From: Cinnamomum chago
Lineage: Eukaryota; Streptophyta; Magnoliopsida; Laurales; Lauraceae
DNA length: 64,000 nucleotides
Assembly (NCBI GenBank): GCA_038049695.1
Contig: CP142457.1
Coordinates: forward strand, 26,922,501-26,986,500
Direction of reading: 5' to 3'
Position numbers and translations under genes: made by a program. A model generated the notes under the pieces. That model saw only the letters and a list, made by a program, of their open reading frames with translations. It was not told where the DNA came from and ran no database searches. Positions 11,111 through 57,496 of this stretch are shown in pieces (position 1 is the first letter of the stretch; the number at the start of each line of letters is the position of its first letter).

Positions 11111-11139
11111 GCCATCGCCATACCACTCTCGACTGAGGT

Positions 11140-14686: not shown

Positions 14687-14749
14687 AATGCTCAATTTAT
14701 CAATATGTATCCGGGTTCATATCTAATATAAAGCTATTTCAAATCTTAG

Positions 14750-15310: not shown

Positions 15311-15422
15311 TGCGACTCTTTGGTTAGTAGAATACTTTCTTGAACAAATAACATATCATTTGTGTTATTAATTTATAAACACTCAAAATGTAGGATTTGA
15401 ACAAATTTTAACTGCACAGTAT

Positions 15423-15650: not shown

Positions 15651-16119
15651 ACATGTAGGAACTGACCGCTCGCAGATTGGATTCACGGTTAGGGAATTAG
15701 AGCCGATTTTGCTAACGATTTTTATAATTTATGTATATATATATACATGTATATCTTTCGTTTATAATTTCATTATTTCAAGAGATACTAATTTTGTTTT
15801 TGTTTTTGTCATTGCAGATTGATGGACGCTTTCTGATCGGATGCACACTTTGGTGTTGTTTTGTTGTTTTTAGTTTATTTGTATATGTATATTGGACATT
15901 TTTATTCGACTGTATTTTTATTAATTTAGACATTTTTATTCGACTGTATGTTTATTAATTGTACTGTTTATTTAAGGAGATGAATGATTTGATGAAGAAT
16001 GGGGATGATTTTGTTTGGATGTATTATTGATTGTAGTATGAGTAGTTTTATTTTTTATTACAGGTGTATAAGCAGGTTTACAGGAAAATTTAAACGAAAA
16101 ACAAAAAAGTCGATTTTAA

Positions 16120-20360: not shown

Positions 20361-20862
20361 TCTCTCTTCAGTCTTCTTCTTTATTCTTTAATGCCTAGGG
20401 TTTTTGCTTTTGTTGTGCATTCATTTATTTTTGCAGGTTCAATAGGCATTTGATTGTTACTTTTGTCTTTCTGTTCTGTCTTTCACATTACTTTGAGTTT
20501 TGGTAAAGGTGGCTATCCCTCTTCTTCCTCATCTGAAAAAGATCTACTCTAGCAAGTAGTGACGGCACTGTCGATCTCCTTCTCCTTGCCCATTGCAAGG
20601 ATCCCGATTTCTGAACCCACAGAAACTCGTCTCTGATCCGTTCCCTTCTCAGCAACTCAGCCCTTCAGAGTCTTTCTTGAGTCTCTCTGTTTCTCAACAG
20701 ATCACCTTCTCCAAAGTCATCCAGAGTCTCCTTTGATCTGAGTGAGCAGTGTCCAGAGGCAAAGATCTGCCTGTATCTCGGATCTGATCCGAGTGTGGAA
20801 GCAAACATTTTCAGATTTTATTAGCATCTTCTTTAAGAGAGATATCAGTGCGTGTAGCAAAC

Positions 20863-21174
20863 ATGGCAGAGACTGCTGTGGATTTCCTACTTCAAACCCT
20901 GGGTTCTCTTGTGCGGCAAGAAGCATCTCTTCTTCAAGGATTGCGCGGGAACATTAATGAAATCCAACCCGAGATGCAGAGCATGCGCTCCTTCTTGAAG
21001 GATGCAGACAGAAGAAAAAGAAGTGATGATGATGATGGAGTGAGGACATGGGTAGAGCAAGTAAGAGAAGCCACCTACAAGGTTGAGGATATCATTTCTA
21101 GATTTTTTCCCATTCAATTTCTAGCCCCAGATCGATACATGTCAGAAAACCCTAATCCTCTATTGATTGAATGA
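20863..21174 (+). pseudogene. Captured N-terminal coiled-coil (Rx-N) exon of an NLR resistance protein
   Basis: The ATG at 20863 opens MAETAVDFLLQTLGSLVRQE, continues with IQPEMQSMRSFLKDADRR and TWVEQVREATYKVEDIISRF. This is the four-helix Rx-N domain of CC-type NLR immune receptors, including the MRSFLKDAD and VRxxxYxxED motifs. It runs about 95 codons and ends without any NB-ARC. In plant cells, this domain mediates self-association and signalling; isolated copies can in principle interfere with full receptors. Location inside CACTA element B, on the same strand as MOB1 and Transposase_24, points to capture. The upstream GTG codons in frame do not belong to the family; the ATG fits it exactly. 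Confidence 0.85.
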
Positions 21175-23904: not shown

Positions 23905-23997
23905 AATGGATTTCTTCAATCAGGTGAATCTTCTTTATGGAACTATTACAGAATTCTGCACTCTAGTGGGCTATTCTACAATGACAGCCGGACCAAG
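23905..23997 (+). pseudogene. MOB1: Captured exon of MOB1 kinase activator
   Basis: The plus strand reads DFFNQVNLLYGTITEFCT and, after a diverged segment, TMTAGPR, ending at a GTATAT donor (exon end 23997). These are the signature words of the MOB1/phocein family, adaptors that bind and activate NDR/LATS kinases in growth control. In the family, two Cys and two His bind zinc; only the first Cys region is here. About 31 residues of roughly 215. The diverged LVGYS replaces the usual Cys-containing PxxCP. Same strand as the NLR exon upstream in element B, so they could share a transcript. Confidence 0.8.
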
Positions 23998-24729
23998 GTA
24001 TATTTCTCTCTCCCCTGGCATTGGAAGACCTGCAGGCATGTGCTGTAATGTATTTGAATATTTATGCACACTAGACTGAAGTAGGGATGATAACAATGGC
24101 GAAGACGGTTATGGTGATGAGTTAAGAATTATATTTAACAAGAACTAGAGAAAGTACAGAGTGTTCATGTGGTATATTTGGGTTGCGATGCTGTAGAATG
24201 GAAGTCCTCTAAATTTTAGAATGGGTGTGAACTGTGAAGAGACTGTTGTTAGAGACAAGTGCAGGCTACTGGTTTCTAATTTTCAAGAACTTGCCAAGTG
24301 CATGGAAAATTGGGGTTCCTTTTTCTGTTTCTCACCCTAAGTGATGATTCAATTTACATTCTATAGAAGGATCAGCTATTATAGTGCCATATTGCATTAC
24401 CATTTAGCAACTTCTCTTTACTCATTGTTCGTGGCAAGGCAAGAACTACAATTATTATATATGAAGTGAAGTGAGTGATTGATTCCAATTTGATTTTGAC
24501 TATTGAGAAATCCAATTTGACCTCTCCTTTTAAGTCAATTTTCATTCAATACTTAAAGCTTATGGGCCATATAGTAGTGTTTATGGGTAGTCCTTATGAT
24601 TTTAAGCTTAATATGACGAAGTCCACCAAGTTGCACGGGGCACTCTTTGCTAGTATTGTAGATCCCAGTTTATTTCAATTGCCTAACATATATTAATTAC
24701 ATGACATATTTGAATGCTTCGATAATGCA
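23998..24729. other. Interior of element B between MOB1 and Transposase_24
   Basis: AT-rich, no recognisable exon. The last bases, GATAATGCAG at 24720-24729, form a good acceptor for the following exon. Confidence 0.4.
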
Positions 24730-25084
24730 GCGAAGAATGGAAAAGGCATTGTCGCAGCCTGAAATTAACTCTCCAGTGGCTGAGCAACAGGTGATCGAGA
24801 ATCTGCTAGGGAAGAGGGTCGCAAGGAGGCAAGGGTACCACTCGAGGGGCCTATCATCATCTTCTACTGGTATCTTGATGTCTTCTGGGATAAGCACCCT
24901 ACGGCAGCAACTAGCTAATTCGTTGAAAGCACAAGAAGATTTGAGAGAAGAGTTGCGGCGACAGTATGAGGACTCACAGAAGCAAATGCAAGATCAGGCA
25001 GCTGTGTAGGTTCACATGCAGAGTCAGATTCAGTTGTTGCTTTCCCGAGTCGGTATGGATGGTTCGGGTTCCTCCGAAAGATAA
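24730..25084 (+). pseudogene. Transposase_24 C-terminal exon of element B
   Basis: After the acceptor, the frame reads RRMEKALSQPEINSPVAEQQ, NLLGKRVARRQGYHSRG, and a coiled coil LRQQLANSLKAQEDLREELR. It aligns with the element A exon (VLGKRSGYVKGYG) in the same order. An in-frame TAG at 25007-25009 interrupts it, after which the same frame continues with MQSQIQLLLSRVGMDGSG to a stop at 25082-25084. One-exon remnant of a PF03004 protein. Confidence 0.75.
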
Positions 25085-26613: not shown

Positions 26614-27080
26614 TCAAATTGTTATTATTTTGTAGGTGAATGAAGAACTTAATTAAACGGAGATGGAATGCCTTTTGCTAAGTGGATCTACTAATTAGGT
26701 TAAGTTAATTTTGGTTAGTTAGGGATTTCCGGAAATTGTTTACAATGTAGCTTGCCTTTTTTTCGATGCTTTTGTGAAGGTTTTGGATTATATCGTGATG
26801 CTTTGGTTACGAATTTGAAGGTTAATGTAAATAGTTTGGATTATGGATGGATTCAAATTGACTATGTTTTGAATAGTTTGTTTGATTTAGTGCGTGGACG
26901 AGCAAGTATTTTCCTTAATGTGAATGGTGATTAATTTCCAATTAATGAAATGGTTCTTATTGAATGTTACTATCTATATTTTTTTGCATCTTTTGTAAGG
27001 CAGGTTTAGTGATTTGAAAGTGTATCCATACTGCAGCATGTTATTAGTAATGTATATATTGCATTTTTATTTTTTTTAAA
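26614..27080. other. 3' interior of element E
   Basis: AT-rich, no gene. From 27003 on it matches, inverted, element C at about 35460-35560. Confidence 0.5.
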
Positions 27081-27434
27081 AATGGATGGTATCTTGCTTC
27101 TATGGAAACTGTCACAACTGATGACTAGTTGTGTCACTTTTGGTCCGAAAAACAACATATTGATCACTGCTTTTGAAAAGGGAGACAACAAAGTTATCTT
27201 TCTTGTGACGCTTTTAAGTTATTTCAGTGTCACTTTTGGATTAAAAGTGACACAAGTAACCATTTTTTTGTGTCACTTTGTTAACAGAAACTGACACAAT
27301 AAATGTATTTCTTGAGACGCTTTTACGAACTTTTAGTGACGCCGGCAGATAAGACGCTTGCATAGTAATCAGAAAAGCGACACAAACCACTTTTTAAGAC
27401 ACTTTAAAAGTGACTCATTAAGACTTTTTTTTGT
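27080..27434. repeat. Right terminal repeats of element E
   Basis: Repeated GTGTCACTTTT and AAAAGTGACAC words in both orientations, ending in ACTTTTTTTTGTAGTG. Reverse complement of the left end of element C, with which it shares nearly every base over 350 bp. Confidence 0.9.
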
Positions 27435-27494
27435 AGTGCTTGCAAGACCATTCAGTAGGGAGGTGACTTTCAGTCGATACTTGCATTTTGAAAA

Positions 27495-28301: not shown

Positions 28302-31300
28302 TCACATGGTCTTCAACCAAAGACTTAACTCCTCGAGCAGGCCCTTGGCCTTAACCTCTAAAGCTTCCAAGCCACGCTTCTTCAAGATCTTCCCATAAAA
28401 TGCGGCAGAACGCCGCGATCCATCTGCAGCACAGGGAAGCTCTTCCCAAAGAATATGCCATTGCTCGTACTCTTGAGTCTTCCTCCGAAGATTGCTTTCA
28501 GCCTCCTCGACTTGACGAATCAAAGTCTCTTCTCTAGCACGAGCTTCCACAATGGCATCCCATTTCGTAGCAGCTTGTTCCTCCAATAGCTCAAGACGCT
28601 GCCTAGTCCCAACAACCTCTTTATCAACACGACGCAGGTCCTCTGTCAGCCCGATGATAGCCAACTCGGTAACGTTCCTCTCCCGAACGAATTGCTTCCG
28701 AGTCCACGAGATCTCGTCCAGGTCAGACTTGACCTCGCCAGAAGGCTTCAAAAACATCTCATTGAAGAAGTCACCGCTTGGGAAGCTCTTGGTTTCATTC
28801 CACTTGCTCCCTAAAGCTATGACCTCATCAACGAAAGCCTTCGCATCTGCAATGTCCAGGCCAACTTCTTCGCTATTAGCAAGGATGTCCTGTACATGTT
28901 TAATCATGCCAAAGCCAGCTTCTAAATGGCCAGAAGAAAGAGTTTCGATCCATGAGCTCAAAACGCTCTTTAACACTTTCTTCGCATACTCAAGAGATGG
29001 CCCGGACGAAGGCTCACCCCTCTCCAATGGTCGACTGCCCGTGTCATGTCCTGCTGGAGGAGTGCATTAAGCTCTTTCTAATCGGAGACACTAGCGAAGG
29101 AATCTGCTCAGACGATTGCATCTCTCCTGCATTAAAACTAGAAGAAGAAGTCCCTACTTCTGGTTCAACTGCAGGCATCCCCTGCTCTGGCACTGAGATG
29201 GACGGAGGAACTTCTTCCGCTACCTCACAATCTGCCAGCAAAACTAAACAAAAGAGAGGTATGAATATGATCGTTAAAGATTTTCATCATCATCAGGATT
29301 ATTACTACAAATACCTTCTTCGACGATCGGCGGAATACTTTCTGCCTCCATGAGTTCATCTGAAGCGTCGTCAAAGGCCGCATCCATGGATGGCTCAAAA
29401 TCGTCGGAATCCTGTGGCAAGTTAGCTGACAAGAAAACAAGCAACATGTTAGCATATGACAGCACAGACAAAAAAAAAAAGAAATACAAAGAAATTATAC
29501 CAGGTGAAGATTCTGGAATCACTCCAGGATCCCTCGGTTCTTCTTCAGATGTTGCAGCCGGATCCGTCACTGCCTCTTTGGCTGGAACCTCAGGCATCAT
29601 CAAGTCCTCATCTTCCACTGAAAAAGGGAGAGAAGGCAAATCAAAACAAAAGAAATCTCAAAGAAAGAAATGGAAAGAGAAAGAGGAAGAATCATACCTT
29701 CACCAGTGGTCCCTTCCTCTCAGCTCCTCTTTTCCAAAGGCTCATCAGCGTCCCCTGACATCTCTTCAGCGGTGGCGAGAGGGACTTCTGGATCAGGAGA
29801 GTCATCATGTCATCTCTTATTACGGCGCTGTCCTCTCTTCCTCTTACTCCTATGGGATGGTTTACTTGAAGTACCCACCCCACTATCAAAGTCAAGAGCT
29901 TCGCTTGACTCCTCACCGGATCGTCTACTCTTTCCAGTGGACCCCATGGAAGTCTTCTTTAATTTCGCTTGCATCCAAGCGTCGATCTCGGCTTCCTCCT
30001 CTTCGAGCTAATCCAAGACCTCACTAGGTATCTCTTGTACAACTCCTGATCTGATGATGTCCTGCTCACCGAGAAAGTCGATCTTGTGCTTCTCTCCGGA
30101 AAGGAAAACCAGAACTTCCTCTCACCGGACTCCATCTGATCTGCCAAGACCCTTCCCAAGAGATTGCTTGACATCAAGCTCCTTCTTGGAAAGCCCCCCC
30201 GGTACATTGAAAAGCTTTCCGCAAACCATTTCGTGAAGCCAGCAGTCCGAAAATTGGGTAACTCAGGATAGGAAATCATGGAGGTAGTGTCCTCCGCACT
30301 GTAAAAGGCCCATGCATTCCTCCCATCCTGCAAACCTCCAAAGCGCTTCACCATGCTCGAAGGCGCTCCAACAACGCCTTGAGAGAAACCCAACTGCAGG
30401 GTGAAACGCGAGGGAACATACTGCTGGATATCAACAAAAAGGTGTCTCTAGTACACCATCGTACCAACACGTATGTTAAAAAGCCATCCCTTTTCTGCAT
30501 TGGTCAAGGAGTAATGTCTTCCCGACCCCGCCCTGGTGGAATCACGGGAGGCTCCAAAATCAAAAGCCTTCTTCCACAAACCCGAAGAAAGCTTTACTGA
30601 AGATTGCCCGATCTCGACATCCCTGAACCGTCGAATCCTCAAACGGGCAGACAAAAGAGATTCGGAAACGGCTGTCCCTCTAGCCAACCGAATCATGAAA
30701 GGGTCATCATCCTTTGCAACCCCTAAGCGATGGAAGCAGAGACAGTGGTAAACATACCACGAATAAAAACTATGGGCTGAAAATACCCTGTTCATAGGGA
30801 GCCCAAGCCGAACCAAGAAAGTAGCAGCCTGCAGTTCGGTGCACAAGTAGGAGTAAAGAGCTGTCACCAAAGCCAACCGCTCTCCGAATGCCATCTGACA
30901 AGCCAGAAAAATACAATGCGGCCTGATGTGTGTTCCATCTCCTCCAGCGAAAACAGCCTAACCCAACCAATAAGTGAGGTAAACAACGAGATCTCTTCGC
31001 AGTGCAATGTCAGGGCAAATGGCGTCTGTACTCTCGAAGAACTTCTTCAAGTCATCTCACATAACGGAGATCTTCTTCGAACCTGGGTTCTTGGCCCTAG
31101 CATCTTCGGCCATGCCATCAGAAGACTCATCACCGTCAAAGAAGTTGGAGCTGTAATTCTTCCAACTGTCCGTACAGCCAAAAAAGAAAAAAAAACGTGC
31201 AAAAGAAAAAAAACGTCAAAAAAAAAATAGCACGTGAAAGAAAAAAGAAAAGAAAAAGAAAAAGAAAGAAAAGAAAAGAAAATTTTACTTCTACAATGGA

Positions 31301-35030: not shown

Positions 35031-35166
35031 CTCTCGGCGACCCCGAGGACGGATGGGAGAGGAGAAAGAAGAAAAAATCGGGTCCATCATTCCTCCCTTT
35101 TATCTCTTTAAACTTCTTATACCCAATTCATACGTAGGAAGTTTGAATTGCTGGGAGATTGGAGAA

Positions 35167-35470
35167 CACTACAAAAAAAATGTCTTAATGAGTCACTTTT
35201 AAAGTGTCTTAAAAAGTGGTTTGTGTCACTTTTCTGATTACTATGCAAGCGTCTTATCTGCCGGCGTCACTAAAAGTTCGTAAAAGTGTCTCAAGAAATA
35301 CATTTGTTGTGTCAGTTTCTGTTATCAAAGTGACACAAAAAAATGGTTACTTGTGTCACTTTAAACCCAAAAGTGACACTGAAATAACTTAAAAGCGTCA
35401 CAAGAAAGATAAATTTTGGACCAAAAGTGACACAAGTAGTCATCAGTTGTGACACTTTCCATAGAAGCGA
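35167..35470. repeat. Left subterminal repeats of element C
   Basis: About a dozen AAGTGACAC/GTGTCACTTT words in both orientations, near-identical to the inverted E terminus at 27100-27434. Confidence 0.9.
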
Positions 35471-35817
35471 GATACCATCCATTTTTTTTTAAAAAAAATG
35501 CAATATATACATTACTAATAACATGCTGCAATATGGATACACTTTCAAATCAACCCTATCACAACCATTTCTACATGAATCTAATCAATCAATGATATGA
35601 GAAGACATAACAAATTTAGGAATGACAAATAAAAGTTCCACAAACCATGAGACTGACACCTTCATGTAAGATAATGGAGGAATGACAGACCAACATAACA
35701 AATTGAGGAATTAACACCTTTGTTGTAACCAAGAAGAGAAAGAAGTGCTAATGAACAATATTATGCCCTGTAGCACATCTATAGGAGCCTTGTAGGAATG
35801 AAAGGAGAATACCATAC

Positions 35818-36176
35818 CTGCGTTGTACAGTGAGCAACTCCATCCCACTTATTGTATGTGCCCCTGCTATTCTCCGTCCACTCCCCATAATCCATCCTAC
35901 AATTAATCATTAACATAAAACTCATCATTATGCTCACTCCCCATCATAAAAGTACCTGCATGATTGCCTCAGAGACACAGTCAAAACCGAAGTCCACAAG
36001 TCCAAGCATTATGGACAATACATCTTTTAGGAAGAGCACTAAACAATGACTAGTGAGAAATTAGCTCATATACCTGCAAATCCACTGCCAAATTCAAATC
36101 CCTTGGATGCAGGTAAGGACAAACAAGCTTTAGCAAGCTTGGCTTCAAGCTTATCAAAGACTGGTGAACCAAGTCC
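35818..36176 (-). pseudogene. Captured chorismate synthase exons
   Basis: Two minus-strand exons. The first, 36176-36074, follows a TCAG acceptor and reads [20 protein letters not shown] then [12 protein letters not shown], ending at a GTATAT donor. The second, from 35955, reads GTFMMGSEHNDEFYVND, then decays: the part down to about 35818 still aligns by eye with the RTRTNRSGGIQGG region but has lost its frame. Chorismate synthase makes chorismate from EPSP in plastids, the last step of the shikimate pathway, using reduced FMN. These exons are near the C-terminus and include the conserved GSGF and SEHNDEF words. They form the 3' end of element C's cargo, on the same strand as MLH1 and HSP70. 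Confidence 0.85.
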
Positions 36177-37782
36177 CTGACACAAAAGGGAATTTATAAA
36201 TATCAGTCCAGTTTTTACAATCCAAGCAAAGCATCCGAGTACACTTTGGAGTTTAACAAACCATTCATGAGGAAAGTTGAATTCTTACACGGGGGGACAT
36301 TTCTTGCAATGCAGGTCAAAACCCCATGGGGTGATGTTGAGATTGGATTAAATCATGGGCATGATTAACTTGCAATTAATCCATCAAATGAGTCGCAGTG
36401 ATGCACCCAATGGCATGATAAAACCCAATGTGAAAATTAATTGGATCAGAGTGATATTTATCAACAGGAGGTCAATTTCCTATATTTACTTTGGTTAACG
36501 TGGACCACACTGCACCAAAATAAAGCATCAGAGTGAAGGTTTTCAAATATTACAAAGGTGAAGGTGGTCTGAATGGAATTATGATAGTGATAAATTGCGG
36601 CAGCAGCAAAGTTGGGAAATAAAATAGACACATGGGTGGCTTGAAACTCGGTATCCGGTATGGAGATTTAAAAAAAAAATGAAATTGATATTTGATGTAG
36701 CTTGTAGACTCATATCATAACACACTTCCCATCCAAGTGCACAAAAAATATCCACAAGATATATGATTACATACTACTTCTCTAAAAGGATTATTCTAGA
36801 TTCTCCATGAGAGAGAGAGAGAGAGAGAGAGGGGAGAAGTAGCCCCAGCTTTGACAAAGATTATTAATTTTCACCAAATCAAAGTCACACAGCCTTCTTA
36901 TCTGTATGAAGTAGCCCCAGCTTCGACAAAGATTATTAATTTTCACCAAATGAAAGTCGCACAACATTCTTATCGGTATGACAATACAAATTCTAGAAAT
37001 ACCTGATACCACTAGCTTGAAGCAATATTCCTCATATAAGCAGGCATTGCTAAATAAAATGGCAGCAGAAATGGGAACCTTCAGCATTCAAGGAGACCAC
37101 AGTCATATCGCTTTAAAAATAAAATACAAACATTACATTATGGTTTAGGCAGTGTATGATGCAAGTTTTAGATTTGAAACAGTTCAAACTTTAAACTCCA
37201 CCAGACCTCCATCTTTCTCACCATTATATCATATTTTTAATTCTTATCTACCACCTAAAAACCATTGCAGATGAAGACATTTATCTGTTTTTAATAGTAC
37301 ATTTTTTGTTTAGATTTTTTGGAACAAAATGGAGAGATGCAGCTGTCTGAAAAGGGGGCTGAACCATAAGATGGCCATTACATAATGATATCAGCCCCTG
37401 GCCATTTGGACCAAACCATGAATTCCCTCAAGTTTGACCTAATGAGTTAGGGGTAAAAAGGTGCAATTAAATACTAAAAAATGAAGAAATTGTCAAAAAT
37501 GTCATCAGTAGTCACCATTCAAAGACAAACATTAAGGTTAACAAAGTTACATTCAGTACTTCACAAAAAAAAAAAAAAGTTACATTCAGAATAAACAATC
37601 AATATTTTTTTATTTTCGAAATTAAGTGTATAGATTCCAAACGTACAATATAAAAAGAATAAAGAATGGCAGCTCCTCCTCACTTGCAGTCTCTGGAAAA
37701 ACCAACGAGAGACACAACCAAGAAGGGGCAGAGTTGAGAAACAATCAATATTGGTGAATGATAATATTCAAATTCTACTTAC
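36177..37782. other. Interior of element C between chorismate synthase and MLH1
   Basis: AT-rich, intron-like. Contains a (GA) run at 36811-36832 and a 72-bp tandem duplication. No further exon recognised. Confidence 0.45.
36836..36979. repeat. 72-bp tandem duplication
   Basis: GAAGTAGCCCCAGCTTTGAC starts at 36836 and again at 36908, with about 90 percent identity over 72 bp. Confidence 0.85.
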
Positions 37783-39189
37783 CATTGATAAAAAGCACCA
37801 GAGTTGTTTTCTTTGCAACATAGTTAGCATCCGAAGTAAAACCATCCATCTTGAAGACTGAGCGAGAAGGATCTTCATCTGAAGCTTCTATTTCCACCAG
37901 ATCACGGGCAACAGATGCACCATAAACGGATCTGATTGCATCCAACCTTGAACAAGTCCCAACTGTGTGAACATCTGCTCTATTTGCACCGTGCTAAATC
38001 AAGTAGACCCAAAATATGGTAACAAGTTAATATTTTTACAACAATGTCTGAAAATTTTCTTCCAAATTAACTTCAATTGTACAGAACAGAAGGAATGTAC
38101 AGATTTGAAAATCCCAATCGGTAAAAAAATCCTCCAAACTAAAACCTTTCAACTTCAAAAATGACAGTATCAGGTGCTAAGAGACCAACCTTTCTGCAAG
38201 AGAAGCTCACATTTACGTTGTGAACTGCAAATCGGCAAATCGTATCCAATATTTTAGAATAATCATCATTAGAGTTCTGCAGCATTTTCCTCCTAGCAGT
38301 CATATTATAGAATAGGTTCTCAATCTGAACAAATGAACAGTGAACTAAGTTTGAATCATAGTAAAAATATCACAAAAAACCAAGATTGAAGGAAAGATGT
38401 GACCTAAGGATATGCAAAATACAATCAGGCCTAGAGTTTGTGAAAGTACGGAAAAAGCCCACACCTGACAATAACCATTAACTATACAGGCTAGATCATG
38501 GATAATATAAAATTGACAAAATAACCAATCTTAGGAGATCCTAGTTATCAATTAGTTTGCTTCATTGTGTGGAGCCTCTAATGTATTACTTTCTTATCTG
38601 TCCATTTGAAGGCAACTAATGGAAATGCTTTCTTGAGGACATTTTTTAGGAAAATATCGATCAAAGATGTCGCCCATCATATCAACACTCGGATCATCAA
38701 TACATATGCAGATGCAGCACCTGTACCCACTCAAGGCTCCAGGATTTTATGCTTAGATTTGAAGGTTATGACCATATAGTCCCTCCACAGATTTGACGCC
38801 TACAAGCATGAGATGGTTCAGATAGAGAAAAATGCCTTACCATTATTTGAGTTCCTTTAACCGCAGCACATGGCCTTGGCTCATGCTCCATCACCCCATC
38901 TCTATATGAAACCCTGTATAGGTTACAATATAGAGTTTTCCAAAATCCTAAGATCAGAAACAAGATCAAACACCATAGATAATGTATGAGATAAATTTTC
39001 TCCAAAATTGAGGCACCTATAACCATGAAGTTGGCCTTCAGTTATTGTTGTCACAGTGACATGACCAACATATGTCATGCTGGCCAATGCCTCTCCTCTA
39101 AAACCCATTGATTGAATGGATTGCAGGTCTTCATATGTAGACAGCTTTGATGTGGTGTGCCTTTCACAGAGTATCGGCAAGTCTTCATA
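37783..39189 (-). pseudogene. MLH1: Captured MLH1 fragment: four consecutive in-frame exons
   Basis: Minus-strand exons: 39189-39017 (YEDLPILCERHTTSKLSTYE, then MGFRGEALASMTYVGHVTV), 38913-38841 (VSYRDGVMEHEPRPCAAVKG), 38324-38190 (IENLFYNMTARRKMLQNSND, then CRFAVHNVNVSFSCRK) and 37993-37783 (HGANRADVHTVGTCSRLDAI, then YVAKKTTLVLFIN). Each has AG before and GT after, phases fit, and 592 bp stay open. MLH1 is the MutL-type ATPase of mismatch repair and of meiotic crossover. The GFRGEAL ATP-lid motif is kept; the N-terminal ATP-binding ENDAGA segment and the C-terminal dimerisation domain are absent. The piece covers roughly residues 70-270 of about 740. It sits inside element C, so this is a captured fragment, unusually well kept. 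Confidence 0.95.
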
Positions 39190-41123
39190 CTGTACATAAC
39201 ATGTTGGTATCATTTATTAGATTTGAGAAGAACAGCAATTGTATCAAATATCAACAGTATTCATACTATGTGCCTGCAAAATATTTAAAATGAAAATGCA
39301 GACCCATGCTCATGCCCCAATCAAGTAACCAAATGTACTTCATTTGACTAAGAAAAATGCTAGAATTATCTATGATTTAGTGTTTTTAGGGTGGCCCGCA
39401 CCACTGCACATGAACCATTGGCTAAAAATCTGATAGGTAAGGTGATTCCACTTTTCTCATATGGTGCTGTCTGAAGCCAATTTCTTAAATGGAATATGGA
39501 CAGTCAATATGATCCATCATTTTACTTTTTGTTTGTCTGGCACAGACACCATAATGTCTAAGGTCGTAATCATGGCCGTAACCAGTAACACTGAGCTGTT
39601 AGTGATCTGCATAACAATTTATATCATATACCTCCCAGGGAATTCGAATTCATGACATTTTGCTCCAATATCATGCTAATAACCAGTAACACCAAAAGCT
39701 TGAGCTGTTAGTCAATGGCACAACAATTTATATCAAGAAATGGAACATCTTGACACACATCCAAATTTTGTTGAATGAAAGCTAAATCATTTCGTTAAAA
39801 GAGAGATTTTTTCCATAATCCATTTTAAGAAAAGATTAGTGGAGACTCATAACCCCAAAAGCCACAGAATCTTCAGCTACCTCCAATACTCCGTCAGATT
39901 TTTGTGACCCTCTTTTCAGTCTGTATAAATACTGCCTAGGTCCATTGGATGATATACAATTCTCAAGCCCTCTTGCTGTTTGTAGTCTATATAAACAGGG
40001 CCTGAGTCCATTTGGGATGTATAAATCTCAAGCCCTTTTGCTCTTGTTGCTCTAGGCTTATGATTTCTATAGCCTTCTATTATGGGCGCATAATTTATAT
40101 TCAATATAAACAGGGCTAAGGTCCATCCAGTAGGGTTTGAGAAAGGTCCATCTTGGATGTGCAATTCTCAAGTTTTCTTGCTCTCTTTGGTCTATGTTTA
40201 TGAGTTCCATTGCCTTCTACTCTGGGTGCATATTGTAGTGTCCAAAGTTGGTCTTCAATCCTGCAAGCTGTAGTCCAATAGATAGCAAAACAGAGCTTGA
40301 TTTATCCTAGACACAGACCTGCCTACAACCCTTTGCAAACGCTAACCTGTGTGGCGGCATTTACCGTCTTAATGACTGTGATCCAGGATTCAGACATCCG
40401 TCTTAAATTGTGAAATGAACTTTGCCATGGCCTAATTGATGATAATGATGAATCAAGCTTTGGACAACTCAAATGCTTCGATGGAAGCAATTTTGAATGA
40501 AATCCAAATCTAGCAGAAACATTCAATCTTAGTTCCCACTGTAGTAAGAAAAGGCAAGATCTACACTGGAGATAAGCTCAAAAAAAAAAAAAAAGATCAC
40601 ATAAACAAACAAAGATCAAACGCAAATCAGAGATATAACCATGATATGTATCTAAAAAGCTAACGAAGACTAGATGAAAGTTAAAATCGTTTTGACAAGA
40701 AATCAGATCGAAGACTGATTAAAATTTAAATCTAGATCTAATTAACGGAGAACACCTAAAATTGATAAAAGCAAAAGATTGAAATGGATAGAACTCAGTA
40801 AAGTTGCTCTGATTGGATTCAAAGCATAACATTTAACAGATCTGTAAGGAAAACTACAAATAAAGCAAGATATATAGTTGAAAGAAGCCAAATACATAGA
40901 AAAAATCAGATCTCAGACACTAAATAAACATCAGATCACAGGTCAAACATACAGCCAAGATAACTCTCTCAAAAAAGAACAGTCTTTCAGATCAAACATA
41001 CAGATAGTGAACCAGATCTAAGTAAAAAAAGAAGCAAAATCCAGATCTAACAAATATCCAAGATCTACAGCCAACAGAGACCATAAATCATCAAAATAAA
41101 GATCGAAACAGATGAAAACTCAC
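39190..41123. other. Interior of element C between MLH1 and HSP70
   Basis: AT-rich, intron-like sequence. Three imperfect direct repeats of a segment with AATTCTCAAGCCCTCTTGCT lie at about 39910-40220. The part 40560-41100, rich in AGATC and CAGATCT, has the look of the first HSP70 intron. No other exon recognised. Confidence 0.45.
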
Positions 41124-41300
41124 CAAAAACGGTGTTGATGGGGTTCATGGCGACCTGATTCTTGGCAGCATCTCCAATGAGACGCTACGAGTCGGTGAAG
41201 GCAACATAGGAAGGGGTGGTGCGGTTCCCCTGGTCTCAACACGATCATGCTGCCAAACGCCGACGCACGAATACGTGGTGCCTAGATCGATCCCGATCGA
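41124..41300 (-). pseudogene. HSP70: Captured first exon of a cytosolic HSP70/HSC70
   Basis: The minus strand reads [20 protein letters not shown], the phosphate-binding start of the HSP70 ATPase domain. A 13-bp loss right after HDRVE shifts the frame, but the DNA still matches the rest of the exon (GGGAACCGCACCACCCC; GATGCTGCCAAGAATCAGGT; ATGAACCCCATCAACACC) and ends GTTTTTG followed by a GTGAGT donor. Plant HSC70 genes have their intron exactly here, in the codon for Asp-72. The usual start MAGKGEGPA is replaced by the CT-rich tract. It would form the 5' exon of any transcript of element C. Confidence 0.9.
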
Positions 41301-41520
41301 GAGAGAGAGAGAGAGAGGGAGAGAGAGAGAGAGAGAGAGAGAGAAAAGAGGGAAAAGAGGGCTTTTGAGGGAAGATAGAGCGAGAGCGAGAGAAGAGCAG
41401 AGAGCGAGAGAACAGAGAGAGCGAGAGTGAGATAAGAGCAGAGACAACGAGAATGAGAGAAGAGACCGAGAGAGGGCTTTTGGAGGGAGAGGGTCAGTGG
41501 GAGCCAAAAAAAGGGCTTTT
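41301..41520 (-). promoter_or_regulatory. CT-rich leader of element C
   Basis: On the minus strand, (CT)n tracts and TCTCGCTCTCGC words lie between the terminal repeats and the HSP70 exon. Same arrangement as in A and D. Confidence 0.55.
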
Positions 41521-41544
41521 TGGAGGCGGGTGAGGAAAAAATAA

Positions 41545-41716
41545 CAACATTATCGACGTTTTGTGTGTTGCGTTATAGAAAAGTGACACAACAAATCTCC
41601 TCTTCGTTTATTCCTCTTCTAAAGTGACACATCAGATCATATGGTGTCACTTTATTGTAAAAGCGACACAAAAGCTCAATTTAAAAGCGAGACTAAAAGT
41701 CCTTTTTTTTGTAGTG
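41545..41716. repeat. Right subterminal repeats of element C
   Basis: AAAGTGACACA and GTGTCACTTTA words, then AAAAGTCCTTTTTTTTGTAGTG. Confidence 0.85.
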
Positions 41717-41719
41717 GAA

Positions 41720-44700
41720 GTTTGCATTAGGAATACGAACACCTTGTAGAGATCAAAAGTGGGGTATGTTTGCTTTCCTTTTTTTATCAATTAGTATTCC
41801 CATTTGAATTGATTAAAATAACATATCAATCTATATATATATATTTTTTTATAAGATCACATTTCAATTTTTTTTCATTTTTTTTTAGCCAGTATTGCAA
41901 CCCAAATTTTTTGTCACATTGCATGATTTATAAGTATGGCATGATTTGGATCTTAGACCTGTAATTTTATCTTGATTTATGCTTATAATTCTGAGCCTAA
42001 TTTAAGCATGTAATTCTGGCCTGATTTAGACCTAAAAAAAATGTGGTTTGATTTGAATCTGTAATTTTGGCCAAGAATTATGTCCTGGGTCAAACCCAGA
42101 ATTATGGTCCAAAATCTGTATTGGATTAGATCCAATATTCTGGCCTGATTTAGACCGATATTCTATCTTAAATTAGACCCAAAATCTGACCTTATTTAGG
42201 CCCAAAAATATGGCTTAAATTGGACCCAAAATCTAGTCTTATTTAGGCCTAAAATCTGGTCTGAATTAGACTCAAAATCTGGCCTTATTTAGGCCCAGAA
42301 ATCTGTCTTAAAATTGGACCCAATATCTGGTCTTATTTAGGCCCAAAATCTGGTCTGAATTAGACTCAAAATCTGGCCTTATTTAGGCCCAGAAATCTGT
42401 CTTAAAATTGGACCCAATATCTGATCTTATTTAGGCCTAAAATCTGGTCTTATTTAGGCACAAAATCTGGCCTTATTTGGGCTCATGATTTTAGATTGAT
42501 TCTGGCTTGAGTTGAATTTATAATTCTGATTAGGCCCATTTGTATTTATTATTTTCAGTTCCTTTACAAAGTTGTTTCCAACCCAAACATATTCCTAATC
42601 CGAAAATAGGCTGAGTTATGGACCTATTTTCTGATTGGATATGGACATTGTAAAGGCTTGTTGAGATCCATTTTACAGTCATTTATACTCTAATAAAGTG
42701 GTCTGGTTCTGACCATTGTTTAGGCCATAGTTCAGCCTAATTTTAGCCAACATTTGGGCTAACTCAGCCCCCAATTTCAGTTAATAATTTGGGCTGAAAC
42801 TCAATTTAATTCATCAAGTATCTGGGTTAAACCCAACCCAATTCCCCTCATTTTTGGGGTGTCTCCTGACACATTCAAAAAATCTATTGCCACAACTGTT
42901 TGTTCTGGAAGATTCTATCTATTTGTTTGGGTGGATACAAAGTGTTTGTAGGCTTTTTGTTTGAGTAGATTTGGGCTGATCATTTGTAGGAATTCAACTC
43001 ATTTGATTGTGGGAATCCATGTTTTAAAGCAACGCTTAGGACAAATTTCAGGTTCATAGTAGACCTTGTCAGGCTCATGACAACCCCTGTTTGGGACATT
43101 TACAATCCATGTCTCATGCCAATTCAAATCATTTTGCCTGTGATTCGGGCTGGGTTCATTCTTTACAATGGGTTGAAACTTGGACTCTTTTATGAACCGG
43201 GTTCTTGAAATGGGTTCATATCTTAAAGCGGGCTCACCTTTAGATAATTTCATGGATGAGTTCATATATAGGGTTAATTTTATGAAATAAATTCTTACAT
43301 AATAAAATCTGATGAAATGGGTCCCTTATTTGTACTATTTTGGGCCCATTTACGTAAGTCATTTGAGCCATTTAGAATCCAAGTCCAGCCACTATTTGAA
43401 CAATATTTTAGGCCAATTATAGACAATTTCTGGTTGATAATCAGTCTTATTTTTACTATTGTTCGGGCTGATTTTCAACCCATTTATAGAAAACAGTTTG
43501 GGTCAAGGTTCAACCCATTTAGAGAAAACAGTTTGGGTCAAGGGTTTAGGTCTATAAACCATTGGTAATCAATAGACCAATGTAGGCAATCAGTCTTTTC
43601 TTGGATTGGTTTTGGTCTATAATTCTGATTCAATTTTCGAACCATAAATCTGTTCTAGTTTAAAATTATAGGTCTGGAATAGTGCTGGCCTGACTTGAAG
43701 TTATAATTATGGCGTGAATTAGGCCTAAAATCTGTCTTAGATTAGACCCCATATTTTGACCTGATTTGGACCCAAAAAACCTAGCCAGATTCAAGGCCCA
43801 AATTCTCTCTTAGATTAGACCCAATATTCTTACCTGATTTGGACCCAAAACCTAGCCAGATTCCGGCCCAGATTCTGTCTTAGATTAGACCCAACATTCT
43901 GACCTGATTTGGACCTAAAACCTAGCTAGATTCATGCCCAAATTCTGTCTTAGATTAGACCCAATATTCTGGCCTGATTCAGTGAACATTTGAATTATAC
44001 CCAGCCTAATTCCAGTCACTTACTGGGCTGTCTCTTTACCCATTCAGAACCTATTCGCAAGACCTATTTATTTAGAAAAGTTCTGCTTTGTTTATTTGGG
44101 TGGATCCAGGTTGTTTGTGGGCTGTTTGTTTGTGGAGAATTCAGGTTTGTGGGCTGTTTGTTTGTGGAGAGTTTTTGCTGTTTATTTAGGTAGACTCAGC
44201 CTATTTGTAGGGTGTTTGGTTGGGAGGATTCAAGATTATGTGGAGGGCAGAAACCTTTAAATAAGGATCTGAATTTCCATTTTTAATGTTAGCCAAATCA
44301 TTTTGTACATAAGATTTTAGCAAAGGGCAGGGACCTTTTAAATCCTTGAATCTCAATTATTTTTTTTTAGTCTTCTTATGGGAGGGCGGACTTCCAAAAA
44401 AAAAAAAGAAATCTGAATCTCCATTTAAAAAAGGAAACAGGATGGGGAATAATTGAAATCTGAATCTCCATTTTTTTATGATAGGTGTAGATATTATTAT
44501 TATTATTATTTTAGAGAGGAGGGCAGAACCCCCTTGTCATAGGATTCTGAATCTCCATTTACAGAAAAGCTATGATATATGAGGAAGATGAGATGATGTA
44601 ATGGAGGATATGAAATGGAGATGATGTGGTGTAGGTGTAGATTTTTTTTTATTTTTTTTTATTTTTTTTTTATTTTTTTGAGAGAGAGAGGAGGGCAGAA

Positions 44701-45493
44701 TTCCCTTGTCATGGGATTTCGAATCTCCAATTACAAAATAGTTATGATATATGAGGAAGATGAGATGATGTAATGGAGGAGATGATCTGCTAGTTGGGAG
44801 GGCGGATCCCTTAAACAAGGGTCCGAATCTCCTTAATTTCAAAGTTTGTGCTATAAGGGATGGAATAGAGATGGGATGAGTGTGATGGAGTGAAGAAGGA
44901 GATCTGTATGGAAAGGAAAGTGAAGAAGATGAAGCAAAAGATGAATAATTATTTTTATGTTTTTTCACCTTGCCTACTTCTCTGTCTTCTCCTTTTGTCT
45001 TTCTATTTTCTCCTTGTCTTTACTTCTCTTTCTCCCTCTCTTCTTTCTCCTCTCTCTGCAAACACCAAAACGAAGTCCTCCCTCTCTCTTTACTTCTCCT
45101 CCTTCTATTTCTTTGTTTGAGAAGTTATGCAACTTCCTGCATGATGAGATCGTCTAAATGTGTGGGGAGTTTCATAAACTTCCCACAACAACGATCTCTA
45201 TTTGAATGGGTCAAATGGTATCTTTCATTGGATCATTTTGTGGGGCCCACATTTGAATTTTGAGGAATAAAAATAGTTTATGTAGGGATTCCAAACTTAG
45301 ACCTTTGGGATGATGTACATTAGCTTAGTCCACTTTACCAGCAACTGCTCATGTAGGTTTTTTTTTTTAACTTTGCTAAAAAAAAATGTTTTGAAATTTT
45401 TATGACTCATGTCATTGATTCATGCTAATTTAATGGGCTTAAACCAATTTCCATCTGCATCTTTTGTTTGGCAAAATTTTGACATCAACAAAT
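41720..45493 (-). mobile_element. Long gypsy LTR, minus orientation, split by element C (continues at 35090-35166)
   Basis: Its start, TGTTGATGTCAAAATTTTG on the minus strand at 45493, is preceded by a CGAGGGGCCATTTG polypurine tract, so this is a 3' LTR of a minus-strand element. The part 43975-45493 is about 95 percent identical by eye to 53945-55573, and 41720-42010 plus 35090-35166 is the inverted match of 52542-52890. Sensible reading: one LTR of more than 3.8 kb, long for a plant gypsy element but within the range of Tat/Ogre types. Open frames near 44600-45260 are T-rich low complexity. Confidence 0.7.
42000..42510. repeat. Degenerate tandem repeat in the LTR
   Basis: Variants of AAAATCTGGTCTTATTTAGGCCC alternate with AAAATCTGGTCTGAATTAGACTC; a unit pair of about 100 bp is repeated near 42240 and 42345. 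A related block (ATTCTGTCTTAGATTAGACCC) lies at 43720-43980. Confidence 0.8.
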
Positions 45494-52430: not shown

Positions 52431-52541
52431 AGAGTATACTTCATCGATCGGGCTTGTATATTTTTTTAACGTTACACCGTCTCATTTAACTGGGCCGCCG
52501 GTGTAACTTGGACGGTAAATACACATTTTCTTGTAGTGTCA

Positions 52542-52890
52542 GAATTATAAGCATAAATCAAGATAGAATTACAGGTCTAAGATCCAAATCATGCCATACT
52601 TATAAATCATGTAATGTGACAAAAAATTTGGGTTGCAATACTGGCTAAAAAAAATGAAAAGAAAAATTGAAATGTGATCTTATAAATATATATATATATA
52701 TATAGATTGACATGTTATTTTAATCAATACAAATGAGAATACTAAATGATAAAAAAAAAAAAAAAAGGAAAGCAAACATACCCCACTTTTGATCTCTACA
52801 AGGTGTTCGTATTCCTAATGCAAACTTCTTAAATCTCCCAGCAATTCAAACTTCCTACGTATGAACTGGGTATAAGAAATTTAAAGAGAT
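52542..52890 (-). mobile_element. Inverted LTR copy preserving the empty site of element C
   Basis: Reverse complement of 41717-42010 joined directly to 35090-35166. At 52830 the sequence AAACTTCTTAAATCTCCCAG reads through the point where element C is inserted in the other copy, with only one GAA. Confidence 0.9.
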
Positions 52891-53440
52891 AAAAGGGAGG
52901 AAGTTAAGAACTTCTCCTTGATACAAGGGAGCCCAAACCACCACTTTTCAAATTTCAAAAAGAATCTCTCTAAAAGAAAAGGTCAAACATCTAACCAAAG
53001 GTTTTGGATCAACCTACCCAATTCAACTTGTTTAGCAAAGAGGTCTGGTCATTTCAAATCCATTGTGATGGGCCAATAAAATACAAAGGATGACCCACTA
53101 TTAAAAAAAAATCATCATCATCAAATTCATCAATTCATGAATCCAATCAAGAAATGGTCATGAAGATCCAGGTGAATTTAAAAAACTACTTCTGACAGCA
53201 AAAGCGAAGAGCGGGAACTTGTCAATTTTTATTCCTATATTTTCTTTGTAAATTTATTTGAGTCAATGTCTTGATAATTAGAGGTTTTCCATTGAGGATG
53301 TAATTAACGATCGATGAGTTCTCACGATCGGGAGTATGATGTACCCACAAAATTGAATGTAAAACCTCCCATTAAATGGAGGGAAATTTGTATCCAATGA
53401 ATTTTGGTGCATTTCTTTATTTATGCATGAATTTATTGTG
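52890..53440 (+). mobile_element. LTR end region, no gene
   Basis: AT-rich DNA leading to TTTTTGTCACACCCGGTGGGAC at 53443-53465. The CCCGGTGGGACT motif also follows LTR1 (inverted, 4868-4880), so it marks the step from LTR to leader. Confidence 0.5.
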
Positions 53441-53849: not shown

Positions 53850-54724
53850 CACTGTTTGGGACACAATCCAGCCCAATTTCAGTCATTATTTGGGCTGAGA
53901 TCTAGCCTAATCCAGCATGTATTTGGGTTAGACCCAATATTTTTGGTCTAATTATAAGTCTGATTCAGTGAACATTTGAATTAAACCCAGCCTAATTTCC
54001 GTCACTTACTGGGCTGTCTCTTTATCCATTCAGAACCTATTCACAGGACCTATTTATTTAGAAAACTGCTGCTTTGTTTATTTGGGTGGATCCAGGTTGT
54101 TTGTGGGTTGCTTGTTTGTGGAGAATTCAGGTTTGTGGGCTGTTTGTTTGTGGAGAATTCAGGTTTGTGGGCTGTTTGTTTGTGGAGAGTTTTTGTTGTT
54201 TATTTAGGTAGACTCCGCCTATTTGTAGGGTGTTTGGTTGGGAGGATTCAAGATTATGTGGAGGGAAGAAACCTTTAAATAAGGATCTGAATTTCCATTT
54301 TTAATGTTAGCCAAATCATTTTGTACATAAGATTTTAGCAAAGGGCAGGGACCTTTTAAATCCTTGAATCTTTATTTTTTATTTTTTTATTTTCAGTCTT
54401 CTTATGGAGGGCAGACTTCTAAAAGAAAAAAGAAATCTGAATCTCTATTTAAAAAAGGAAACAGGATGGGGAATAATTGAAAGGTGCATGACTATGGCTA
54501 TATATTTTTTTAGGCAGGCAGATTTCTTATTTTTGTGAAATCTGAATCTCCATTTTCTTATGATAGGTGTAGTTATTATTATTATTATTATTTATTTTTT
54601 TTAGAGAGGAGGGCAGAACTCCCTTGTCATAGGATTCCGAATCTCCATTTACAGAAAAGCTATGATATATGAGGAAGATGAGATGATGAAATGGAGGAGA
54701 TGAAATGGAGATGATGTGGTGTAG

Positions 54725-54780
<56 letters not shown>

Positions 54781-55573
54781 AGAGAGAGAGAGAGAGGAGG
54801 GCAGAATTTCCTTGTCATGGGATTTCGAATCTCCATTTACAAAATAGCAATGATATATGAGGAAGATGAGATGATGTAATGGAGGAGATCATCTGGTAGT
54901 TGGGAGGGCGGATCCCTTAAACAAAGGTCCGAGTCTCCTTTCAAAGTTTGTGGTATAAGGGATGAAATAGAGATGGGATGAGTGTGATGGAGTGCAGAAG
55001 GAGATCTGTATGGCAAGGAAAGTGAAGAAGATGAAGCAAAAGATGAATAATTTTTTTTTCACCTTGCCTACTTCTCTGTCTTCTCCTTTTGTCTCTCTTT
55101 TCTCCTTTTCTTTACTTCTCTTTCTCCCTCTCTCTTCTTTCTCCTCTCTATGCAAACACCAAAACGAAGTCCTCCCTCTCTCTTTACTTCTCCTCCTTTT
55201 ATTTCTCTGTTTGAGAAGTTATGCAACTTCCTACATGATGAGATCGTGTAAATGTGTGGGGAGTTTCATAAACTTCCCACAACAACGATCTCTATTTGAA
55301 TGGGTCAAATGGTCTCTTTCATTGGATCATTTTGTGGGGCCCACATTTTGAATTTTGAGGAATAAAAATAGTTTATGTAGGAATTCAAAACTTAGACCTT
55401 TGGGATGATGTACATTGGCTTCCACTACTTTACTATTACTCATGTAGTTTTTTTTTTTACTTTACTAAAAAAAATGTTTTGAAATTTTGATGACTCATGT
55501 CATTGAATCATGCTAATTTAATGGGCTTAAACCAATTTCCCTTTGCATCTTTTGTTTGGAAAAATTTTGACAT
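53850..55573 (-). mobile_element. Gypsy LTR part, minus orientation, second copy
   Basis: Collinear and about 95 percent identical by eye to 43700-45493, both ending (on plus) in TTTTGACATCAACA. It differs by a large (TA)n expansion at 54728-54778. It directly abuts the PMD copy at 55574 without a polypurine tract, so its edge lies inside PMD sequence, which suggests insertion there. Confidence 0.75.
54728..54778. repeat. (TA)n microsatellite
   Basis: About 25 TA units, next to a GA run (54780-54797). The matching place in the other LTR copy (44640-44670) has T-rich TTTTA units instead. Confidence 0.9.
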
Positions 55574-57496
55574 CAACACACGACAAACTCTATGAAGAGT
55601 TAATGCCTATCAACAGTGCCTAGAGGAACAGTCTAAGGAGTTCCGGCTTATGTACTTTCAGCTTGTTGCCTTCTATGATTTTTTGAAGGAGAAAGAGGGC
55701 ATGAAAGTTAGGTCCAGCAATTGGAGGAGTTTTAGCTTGTCGTCTCCCAACTTCTTTGATAGCAGAGAGTCTTCTGACGGCATAACCCAAGAAGCCAGGG
55801 CTAAGAATCCGGGTTCGAAGAAGACTTCCGTTGTGTGTGAAGATTTGAAGAACTTCTTCGCGGCCACAAATGCCATTTGTTTTGACATTGCGCTGCGGAG
55901 AGATCTCGCTGTTTACTTCACTTATTGGTTAGGTGAGGCTGTTTTTGCTAGTGGAGATGGCACGCACATCAGGCAGCATTGTATTTATCTGGCTTGTCAA
56001 ATGGCGTTTGGAGAGCAGTTTGCTTTAGTGCATGCTCTTTACTCCTATTTGTGCACCGAACTGCAGGCTGCTGCTTTTCTGGTTCGGCTTGGGTTCCCTA
56101 TGAATAGGGTATTTTTAGCCCATGTATTTTATTCGTGGGATGTGTACCACTGTCCTGGCTTCCACAAGTTGGGTGTTGCACAGGATGATGACCCTTTTAT
56201 GACTCAATTGGCTGGAGGGATAACCATCTTCGAATCACTTTTGTCTGCCCGTATGAGGATTCGACAGTATTAGGACATTGAGATAGGGCAGTCTTCTGTG
56301 AAGCTTTCTTCGGATTTGCAGAGGAAGGCTTTTGATTTCGGTGTCTCTCGCGACTCTACCAGGGCATGGTCGGGAAGACATTACTCCTTGACCAACACAG
56401 AGAAGAAGTGGCTCTTCAACATACGTGTTGGCACAATGGTGCAGCGTAGACATCTTTTTGTTGACATCCAGCCGTATGTCCCTTCACGCTTTGTGTTGTA
56501 GTTGGGCTTCTCTTAAGGTGTTGTTAGAGCGCCTTTGAGTATGGTGAAGTGGTTTGGAGGCTTACAGGACGGGAGAAATGCATGGGCTTTTTATAGTGTA
56601 GAGGACACTACCGCCATGATTTCTTATCCTGAGTTGCCCACTTTCCGGACTGCCGGCTTCATGAAATGGTTCGTGGAGAGATTTTCGGTGTACCGGGGGC
56701 TTTCCAAGAAGGAGCTTGATGATAGGCAGTCTTCTGGGATCAGATAGTGTCCGGCGAGAGGAATTTATGGCCTTCCTTTCTAGAGAAAAGCATAGGATAG
56801 GCTTTTTGATGAGCATGACGTCATCAGATCTGAAGTTTTCCAAGAAGTACGTGGTGAGGTCTTGGAACAGCTAGAGCTGGAGGAAGCCGAGATCGACGCT
56901 TGGATGCAAGCGGAGCGGAAACAGGCTTCCGTGGAGTCCACTTGCCAGAGCAGACCGTCCAGCGAGGGGTCAAGTGAGAGACATGATTTTGACAGTGAGG
57001 CACGTTCTTCAAGAAAACTATCCTGCAGAGCAAGAGGAAGATAGGGCAGCGCCATAATAAGAGACGGCATGAAGACTCTCATGATCTGGAAGTTCTTCTC
57101 ACCATTGCCAAAGAGGTGTTAGGGAGTGCTGACGAGCCTTCGGAAAAGAGGAGCCGAGAAGAATAGACCGTTGGTTAAGGTATGATTCTTCTTCCTTCTC
57201 TTTCCGTATCTTTTCCTTCATGGATACTTTCTTGTTTTGATTTGCTGTTTTCTTTTTTTTTTAGCAGGGGATGATGACTTGGTGATGCCTGAGGTTTCTA
57301 CCGATGAGGCGGTGACGGATCCGATTACGGCATCTGAAGAAGAACCAAGGGACCCTGGAGTGGTTCCAGAATCTTCACCCGATATGATTACTTTTTTTTT
57401 GTTGTGTCATCGTTTGCTAAGATATTGCTTGTTTTCTTGTCAGCTAAGTTGTCACAAGATTCTGACGACTTTGAACCATCCATGGATGCAGCTTTT
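55574..57496 (+). mobile_element. PMD gene of a gypsy element, copy 3, C-terminal part (fossil)
   Basis: Plus-strand blocks in order: MYFQLVAFYDFLKEKEGMKV, KKTSVVCEDLKNFFAAT, IRQHCIYLACQMAFGEQFAL, FLVRLGFPMNRVFLAHVFYS, WLFNIRVGTMVQRRHLFVDI, FGGLQDGRNAWAFYS and an acidic tail. It aligns all along with copy 1 (29300-31130 on the minus strand). The tail breaks off at DDFEPSMDAAF, exactly where LTR3 begins, so LTR3 inserted into it. Broken in several places. Confidence 0.7.

Follow-up and report, generated by a model that had tools for sequence, protein, structure and literature searches.

A CACTA-type insertion in Cinnamomum chago carrying pieces of HSP70, MLH1 and chorismate synthase genes

Within a 64,000-nucleotide stretch of the Cinnamomum chago genome (contig CP142457.1, positions 26,922,501 to 26,986,500; hereafter, the window), a 6,550 bp segment holds minus-strand pieces of three host genes, namely, those encoding HSP70, MLH1 and chorismate synthase, between the two ends of a CACTA-type transposon. 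The features of this element and of the sites related to it are as follows, with all positions being those of the window.

35164..35166, no strand: left copy of the GAA target site duplication (flank sequence and empty-site comparison)
35167..41716, no strand: CACTA-type transposon insertion, 6,550 bp (terminal inverted repeats, GAA duplication and paralogous empty site)
35167..35552, plus strand: left terminal region with subterminal repeats, common to a second family end at 27438-27010
35906..35955, minus strand: second exon of the chorismate synthase piece, partial, running to a stop (splice model and solved structure)
36074..36176, minus strand: first exon of the chorismate synthase piece (splice model, solved structure and Pfam)
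37783..37993, minus strand: MLH1 exon d (splice model and solved-structure match)
38190..38324, minus strand: MLH1 exon c (splice model and solved-structure match)
38841..38913, minus strand: MLH1 exon b (splice model and solved-structure match)
39017..39189, minus strand: MLH1 exon a (splice model and solved-structure match)
39190..41123, minus strand: chimeric intron, 1,934 nt, from the HSP70 donor GTGAGT to the MLH1 acceptor
40704..41050, minus strand: four sense TTNGATYTG motifs, at offsets 74, 103, 128 and 412 from the donor
41124..41299, minus strand: HSP70 first-exon piece up to its donor, with no ATG, an out-of-frame deletion of ~13 nt and one in-frame TAG
41577..41716, plus strand: right terminal region with subterminal repeats
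41717..41719, no strand: right copy of the GAA target site duplication (flank sequence and empty-site comparison)
52539..52902, minus strand: empty site, a further copy of the target repeat that lacks the element

The element begins with CACTACAAAAAAAA at 35167 and finishes with TTTTTTTTGTAGTG at 41716, the two being exact and in inverted orientation, and the termini pair as inverted repeats at 78% over 40 nt. The termini, length and GAA duplication given in a first-pass annotation of this DNA were found to be exact to the base. Further inside, the 10-mer AAAGTGACAC occurs at 35327, 35370, 35424, 41580 and 41621 and the 10-mer GTGTCACTTT at 35223, 35353 and 41644. Each has six exact copies in the window, confined to the two ends of the element and to a related terminus at 27.0-27.4 kb. 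These short subterminal repeats are present in both orientations, as in the CACTA (En/Spm) superfamily.

The strongest proof of insertion, and a point absent from the first-pass annotation, is the copy of the target repeat in which the element is missing. Sequence flanking the element on the right aligns with positions 52828-52539 on the other strand, with the alignment crossing the insertion point and continuing 77 nt leftwards. The empty site reads ...GGGAGATTTAA-GAA-GTTTGCATT..., while the filled site reads ...GGGAGATTGGA-GAA-[element]-GAA-GTTTGCATT..., such that a single GAA at the former corresponds to the two that flank the element. The left flank differs from the empty site at 4 of 77 bases, at which point homology ends, and the right flank at 8 of 277 aligned bases, with 14 additional gap positions. 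Given its inverted CACTA termini, 3-bp duplication and subterminal repeats, the element is a member of the CACTA (En/Spm) superfamily.

To define its content, the whole element was scanned against Pfam in all six frames, with matches considered up to an E value of 1. No transposase domain was detected in this manner. The minus-strand frames returned HSP70 (E 1e-9 and 0.0062), Chorismate_synt (5e-10) and, below threshold, DNA_mis_repair (0.02), whereas the three plus-strand frames returned no match at all, and no captured gene beyond HSP70, MLH1 and chorismate synthase was seen in any of the six. In carrying host coding DNA and no recognised transposase, the element resembles the Pack-CACTA type. 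The three host gene pieces described earlier were, as such, recovered on one strand and in the order HSP70, MLH1, chorismate synthase, an orientation shared by chance in 1/4 of cases. Indeed, the similarity check on the exons returned these same three proteins, based on solved structures and Pfam and, for MLH1, on plant proteins as well. Between the MLH1 and chorismate synthase pieces, a 72-nt unit is repeated in tandem at 36836-36979, its two copies being 92% alike.

The HSP70 piece matches a solved bovine chain with an E value of about 1e-17, with 34 of 37 residues being identical in its second half. Although the natural donor of the first exon is present, as the first-pass annotation had held, the exon is not intact. 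Its two halves match the Pfam profile in different frames (2-23 and 27-63) and are separated by a 13-nt deletion, as sized by hand, while an in-frame stop falls at a position occupied by glutamate in the bovine chain. When compared by hand with plant HSP70, the start codon and about seven codons are absent, with a CT repeat found in their place. In the 416 nt between the right end of the element and the HSP70 piece, neither a TATA[AT]A on the transcribed strand nor a paired heat-shock box was found, these two signals being what the promoter test consisted of. Capture of an HSP70 promoter is hence not supported by either signal in this interval and, with the ATG also missing, the description of this region as a strong housekeeping 5' end could not be upheld.

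By contrast with the HSP70 piece, the MLH1 piece is undamaged as a reading frame, with its four exons joining into 197 stop-free codons. The product (197 aa) aligns with the solved MLH1 chain 4p7a along almost all of its length (E 2.1e-60). In searches against proteins, the eight best rows among the 120 listed of 155 matches are 75-81% identical and 99-100% covered. Five of these eight carry the names of flowering plants, with Amborella accounting for two. The claim of four MLH1 exons is borne out by both comparisons. A point against is that the spliced piece, taken alone, matched no Pfam family at E 0.001, with the raw frames giving the weak DNA_mis_repair match noted above. The piece covers neither the ATP-binding motifs at the N-terminus nor the dimer region at the C-terminus that are known from MutL proteins. 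No near-identical chimera was among the MLH1 matches listed, for which candidates were proteins of 0.55-1.75 times the query length. When changes private to one sequence were counted, the MLH1 piece presented 1 at 98 otherwise invariant sites, while seven other full-coverage sequences presented 2 to 8 at 99-105 such sites; these counts come from the 8 full-coverage rows of 14 aligned, hand-picked from the 155 matches, and some of the rows are odd gene predictions, possibly inflating their counts. Judged from these sequences, the captures look recent, or else the MLH1 piece looks constrained.

The chorismate synthase piece matches a solved structure with an E value of 3.2e-18. Both of the exons assigned to it earlier are present, but the second is not complete, offering only about 16 codons before a stop. 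An exon-like stretch noted by eye at about 35815-35895, after this second exon, matched nothing.

To consider how these pieces might be joined in an RNA, splice borders were placed by hand from homology and consensus. In the resulting model, six of six donors are GT and six of six acceptors are AG. When the exons are joined at these natural borders, the HSP70 piece reaches stops before or at the MLH1 junction, while the MLH1 frame is out of frame with chorismate synthase and stops seven codons into it. A fusion protein of HSP70, MLH1 and chorismate synthase was accordingly rejected, there being no single continuous frame at these borders. The three genes are thus not fused, as the first-pass annotation had described them, but are spliced pieces in different frames, with no HSP70 ATG. 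From terminus to terminus, the model transcript measures 2,077 nt. Its longest ORF comprises 177 aa, starts from an internal MLH1 methionine, lies behind six upstream ORFs, one of which overlaps its start, and has its stop 80 nt short of the last junction. A second ORF, of 83 aa, begins in another frame of MLH1 exon d and is in frame with chorismate synthase. By the usual rule, a stop located 80 nt upstream of the last junction makes an RNA a target of decay. A chimeric RNA is nonetheless possible, since all six donors are GT, all six acceptors are AG and intron motifs are present. The earlier proposal that the HSP70 leader and first intron could drive a chimeric transcript is thus supported in part, by the GT-AG borders and the intron motifs, but not by an HSP70 promoter.

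Those motifs lie in the chimeric intron behind the HSP70 piece. The tract that follows the HSP70 donor is T-rich; GATCT words end at 40561, and the T content drops from 0.41 to 0.24 near 40373. Based on this composition, the HSP70-derived part of the intron would end between about 40560 and 40370, and the tract likely arrived together with the HSP70 piece. In the first 500 nt of the intron, TTNGATYTG occurs four times in the sense orientation, a number reached in 0 of 2000 dinucleotide shuffles (mean 0.22), and not once in antisense. When the window was covered in 10-nt steps on either strand, the start of this intron was the only 500-nt stretch with at least three copies of the motif. All four copies lie no more than 1,012 nt from the right terminus of the element. 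Such over-representation of sense TTNGATYTG is what is seen in introns that act in intron-mediated enhancement (IME).

Other sequences in the window concern the family of the element and transposases. A second terminus, at 27010-27438, begins with CACTACAAAAAAAA and is in the opposite orientation to the 35167 end, from which it differs at 12 of 381 aligned bases, with 53 gap positions. As this second terminus is related, a family of such elements exists. Beyond the first 386 bp of the element, the interior of the sibling diverges. No partner for it was found in the window, either by a fuzzy search for the right terminus of the element or by a search for CTT-CACTA, which returned only 50707. 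A lone Mob1/phocein exon of decayed appearance lies upstream of this second terminus, at 23906-24001 on the plus strand (Pfam E 2.5e-05; score 24.8 bits, cut-off 27), and is possibly another captured piece of a host gene.

A tnp2-type transposase is found at 7555-9398 on the plus strand, split across two frames (Transposase_21, E 7.3e-78 and 3.5e-08). Its closest proteins are 73-76% identical, these being the best rows of 120 among 1522 matches. For this ORF pair, no tnp2-containing element with the same ends as 35167-41716 was seen. A candidate second CACTA element spans 9803-16809, with ends CACTACAACA and TGTTGTAGTG and a shared CTA flank, and includes a Transpos_assoc domain at 14030-14686. 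The CT-rich sequence beside the HSP70 piece (41299-41431) is 78% alike, on the opposite strand, to 10670-10808 in this candidate, a likeness that may reflect only a simple repeat. At 63351-63400, TACTACAAGAAAAAAGGC is found with AGTGACAC just inside, and could be a degraded end of another CACTA family.

The remainder of the window offers several unrelated features. Two look-alike reading frames noted by eye on the plus strand, at 24600-25000 and 14924-15310, share LGKR..., with LRQQLA or LREQLA, and no matching Pfam family was found in either region. The Rx N-terminal domain of an NLR immune receptor is encoded at 20788-21174 on the plus strand (E 2.2e-22). A long direct repeat (43974-45490 and 53960-55578, 86%) and a long inverted repeat (29373-31148 and 57496-55747, 80%) are also present, with one arm of the inverted pair overlapping a match, at 55596-56273, to the plant mobile domain that falls below threshold.

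Taken together, the evidence makes it probable that a CACTA-type insertion gathered its HSP70, MLH1 and chorismate synthase pieces by stepwise capture, would be moved in trans, and would yield at most a chimeric, poorly translated RNA, likely boosted by the captured HSP70 intron. In this scheme, genomic DNA would have been captured stepwise, so building the element. As introns are retained, capture would have taken place at the level of DNA, and as each piece is a small part of a gene and all three lie between a single pair of transposon ends, capture rather than a gene cluster is indicated. The empty site, together with the single pair of ends, also speaks against a locus at which these three genes would be neighbors in other plants. 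Known CACTA systems need no more than their ends and subterminal repeats to be moved by a transposase provided in trans. Since only such ends with subterminal repeats are present here, movement in trans is the mode expected. Were transcription to begin from or near the right end, or to enter from outside, splicing would link the HSP70 donor with the MLH1 acceptor, in the way that captured exons are linked in soybean Tgm-Express1, and the cluster of intron motifs would raise the level of the chimeric RNA. With its upstream ORFs, and a stop placed 80 nt ahead of the last junction, this RNA would then be a target of nonsense-mediated decay; with such decay expected, the element would act, if at all, as RNA and not as protein, for instance, as a source of small RNAs against the donor genes. 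Silent cargo is most likely the everyday state of the captured pieces, with a chimeric RNA arising only occasionally.

Rival accounts were also weighed. There is about an even chance that the captured pieces are silent passengers throughout, in an element that is methylated and never transcribed, and that the motif cluster is simply typical of the first introns of HSP70 genes in this plant. That the HSP70 piece is already broken, that the 416 nt preceding it gave neither a TATA nor a heat-shock box and that the pieces are out of frame when joined would all be expected of inert cargo, and in rice, 5% of the 475 Pack-MULEs of chromosomes 1 and 10 had a match among full-length cDNAs, as cited in the available part of PMC1947982. 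The intact splice borders of the model and the intact MLH1 frame point the other way, yet recent capture explains these equally well. The opposite extreme, a chimeric gene in which an HSP70 start leads into an MLH1 and chorismate synthase protein, could draw on the common orientation of the pieces, the natural donor and the open MLH1 frame of 197 codons. Still, such a gene is very improbable, as there is no HSP70 ATG, stops intervene between HSP70 and MLH1, the passage from MLH1 to chorismate synthase is out of frame and the longest ORF of the model, at 177 aa, lies inside MLH1 behind six upstream ORFs and is without the MLH1 N-terminus.

Silencing in trans, whereby small RNAs from the element act on intact MLH1, HSP70 or chorismate synthase genes and could so alter mismatch repair or crossing over, is unlikely. 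In its favor, captured sequences in maize have been reported as reservoirs of small interfering RNAs (in the accessible portion of PMC13317346), and the protein sequence of the MLH1 piece shows no decay. On the other hand, no inverted copy of a gene piece was found in the 25 longest of the 28 inverted pairs of the element or by blastn against the window, and selection may eliminate plants whose essential donor gene has been silenced (PMC13317346, same portion). As for the three gene fragments having been mis-joined in assembly, this is scarcely credible, given that one matched pair of ends with its target duplication encloses the whole block and that the empty repeat fits the junctions.

The favored account of stepwise capture can be carried one step further. 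A Pack-CACTA element may have captured the 5' intron of an HSP70 gene, without its promoter, as a portable booster that acts independently of a promoter, sets a transcription start near the element's own end and drives exons acquired later, including those of MLH1; the chances of this are slim. In Arabidopsis, TTNGATYTG raised mRNA about 1.5-fold per copy, stimulating introns had no effect when more than about 1 kb downstream of the transcription start, and the enhancement motifs of first introns are active even in the absence of the proximal promoter, in a position-dependent manner, as given in the available part of PMC6760150. A 2021 survey, in the text available, reported higher mean expression of genes with TTNGATYTG, with an effect size of 0.37 (PMC8157754). 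As in the IME introns of PMC6760150, so far as its available part describes them, the sense copies of the motif lie in a tract running on directly from a first exon, that of a housekeeping-type gene. Unlike those introns, the tract here is inside a transposon, away from its own promoter, and enhancement is a prediction, namely, that the intron would strengthen any RNA made from the element.

Several considerations weigh against the favored account, its intron booster included. The HSP70 origin of the intron tract is drawn from exon continuity and composition, and TTNGATYTG was picked after the sequence had been inspected. Shuffling of the whole 1,934-nt intron gave at least 4 copies in 1 of 2000 cases, and the window itself holds 21 copies where 11.1 are expected, a count reached by 1 of 100 shuffles. 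Elsewhere, the element has one more sense and three antisense copies, for totals of five and three, respectively. Natural variants of TTNGATYTG were without significant effect (0.17 and 0.21, taken as p-values) in the available part of PMC8157754, and the undecayed state of the MLH1 piece may reflect recent capture only. Transposon capture of an enhancing intron was not found in the open-access literature on IME and on CACTA or other transposable elements, in the portions accessible, a scope that does not prove its absence; PMC4158355, in the part available, argues that a gained first intron could have aided CACTA transposases. If the booster reading is true, gene capture gives a transposon control over expression, beyond scraps of coding sequence, and captured 5' gene ends may matter to transposons through the position-dependent enhancement motifs of first introns.

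As a carrier of host genes, the element has clear relatives, described here from the available portions of the papers cited. CACTA elements with host gene pieces have been found in soybean, morning glory, Chenopodium, Arabidopsis and maize, with pieces from several loci in soybean, Arabidopsis and maize, and CACTA elements that take up pieces of more than one gene, and whose captured exons are spliced into chimeric RNAs, have been described in publications from 2007 at the latest (PMC1947982; PMC8903248). The combination of HSP70, MLH1 and chorismate synthase was not found in the literature search, within the text accessible to it: the nearest paper was a review with neither chorismate synthase nor MLH1 in it, and among the papers listed, those rich in CACTA had no MLH1. 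Multi-gene capture by CACTA elements is, however, of a kind already known. Gene identity alone does not define a new kind, and the element joins the known class of gene-capturing CACTA elements.

The closest parallel is soybean Tgm-Express1, in the wp allele of F3H1, likewise a CACTA element built around unrelated pieces of host genes, with exons, introns and canonical borders, at 5.7 kb compared to the 6.55 kb seen here (PMC1947982). Its five genes are different, encoding an unknown protein, CDC2, FPK, malate dehydrogenase and cysteine synthase. Moreover, Tgm-Express1 sits in an expressed gene, with the host promoter starting all of the isolated transcripts, 12 of which are distinct, and the captured exons being spliced in many combinations, whereas the present element is known from its DNA alone. 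The available text of PMC1947982 makes no mention of intron-enhancement motifs for Tgm-Express1. The Pack-CACTA elements of Arabidopsis and maize are likewise non-autonomous, with CACTACAA ends, target duplications and coding DNA from multiple loci, and differ in that the present gene combination is its own (PMC8903248). Maize Pack-CACTAs hold more loci per element than do other Pack types, and singletons were excluded from the Pack-CACTA annotation (PMC8903248); capture by Pack-CACTA elements is modeled as neighboring insertions and aberrant excision (PMC8903248; PMC13317346). The Tpn1 family of Ipomoea nil, with a mean length of 7,081 bp, also keeps terminal and subterminal repeats around an interior of host genic DNA and makes 3-bp duplications, a likeness of described structure, and unlike the case here, includes identified transposase-coding elements (PMC5105172). 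To these systems, the Cinnamomum chago locus adds one clean, well-bounded multi-gene Pack-CACTA element, together with its empty site in the same window.

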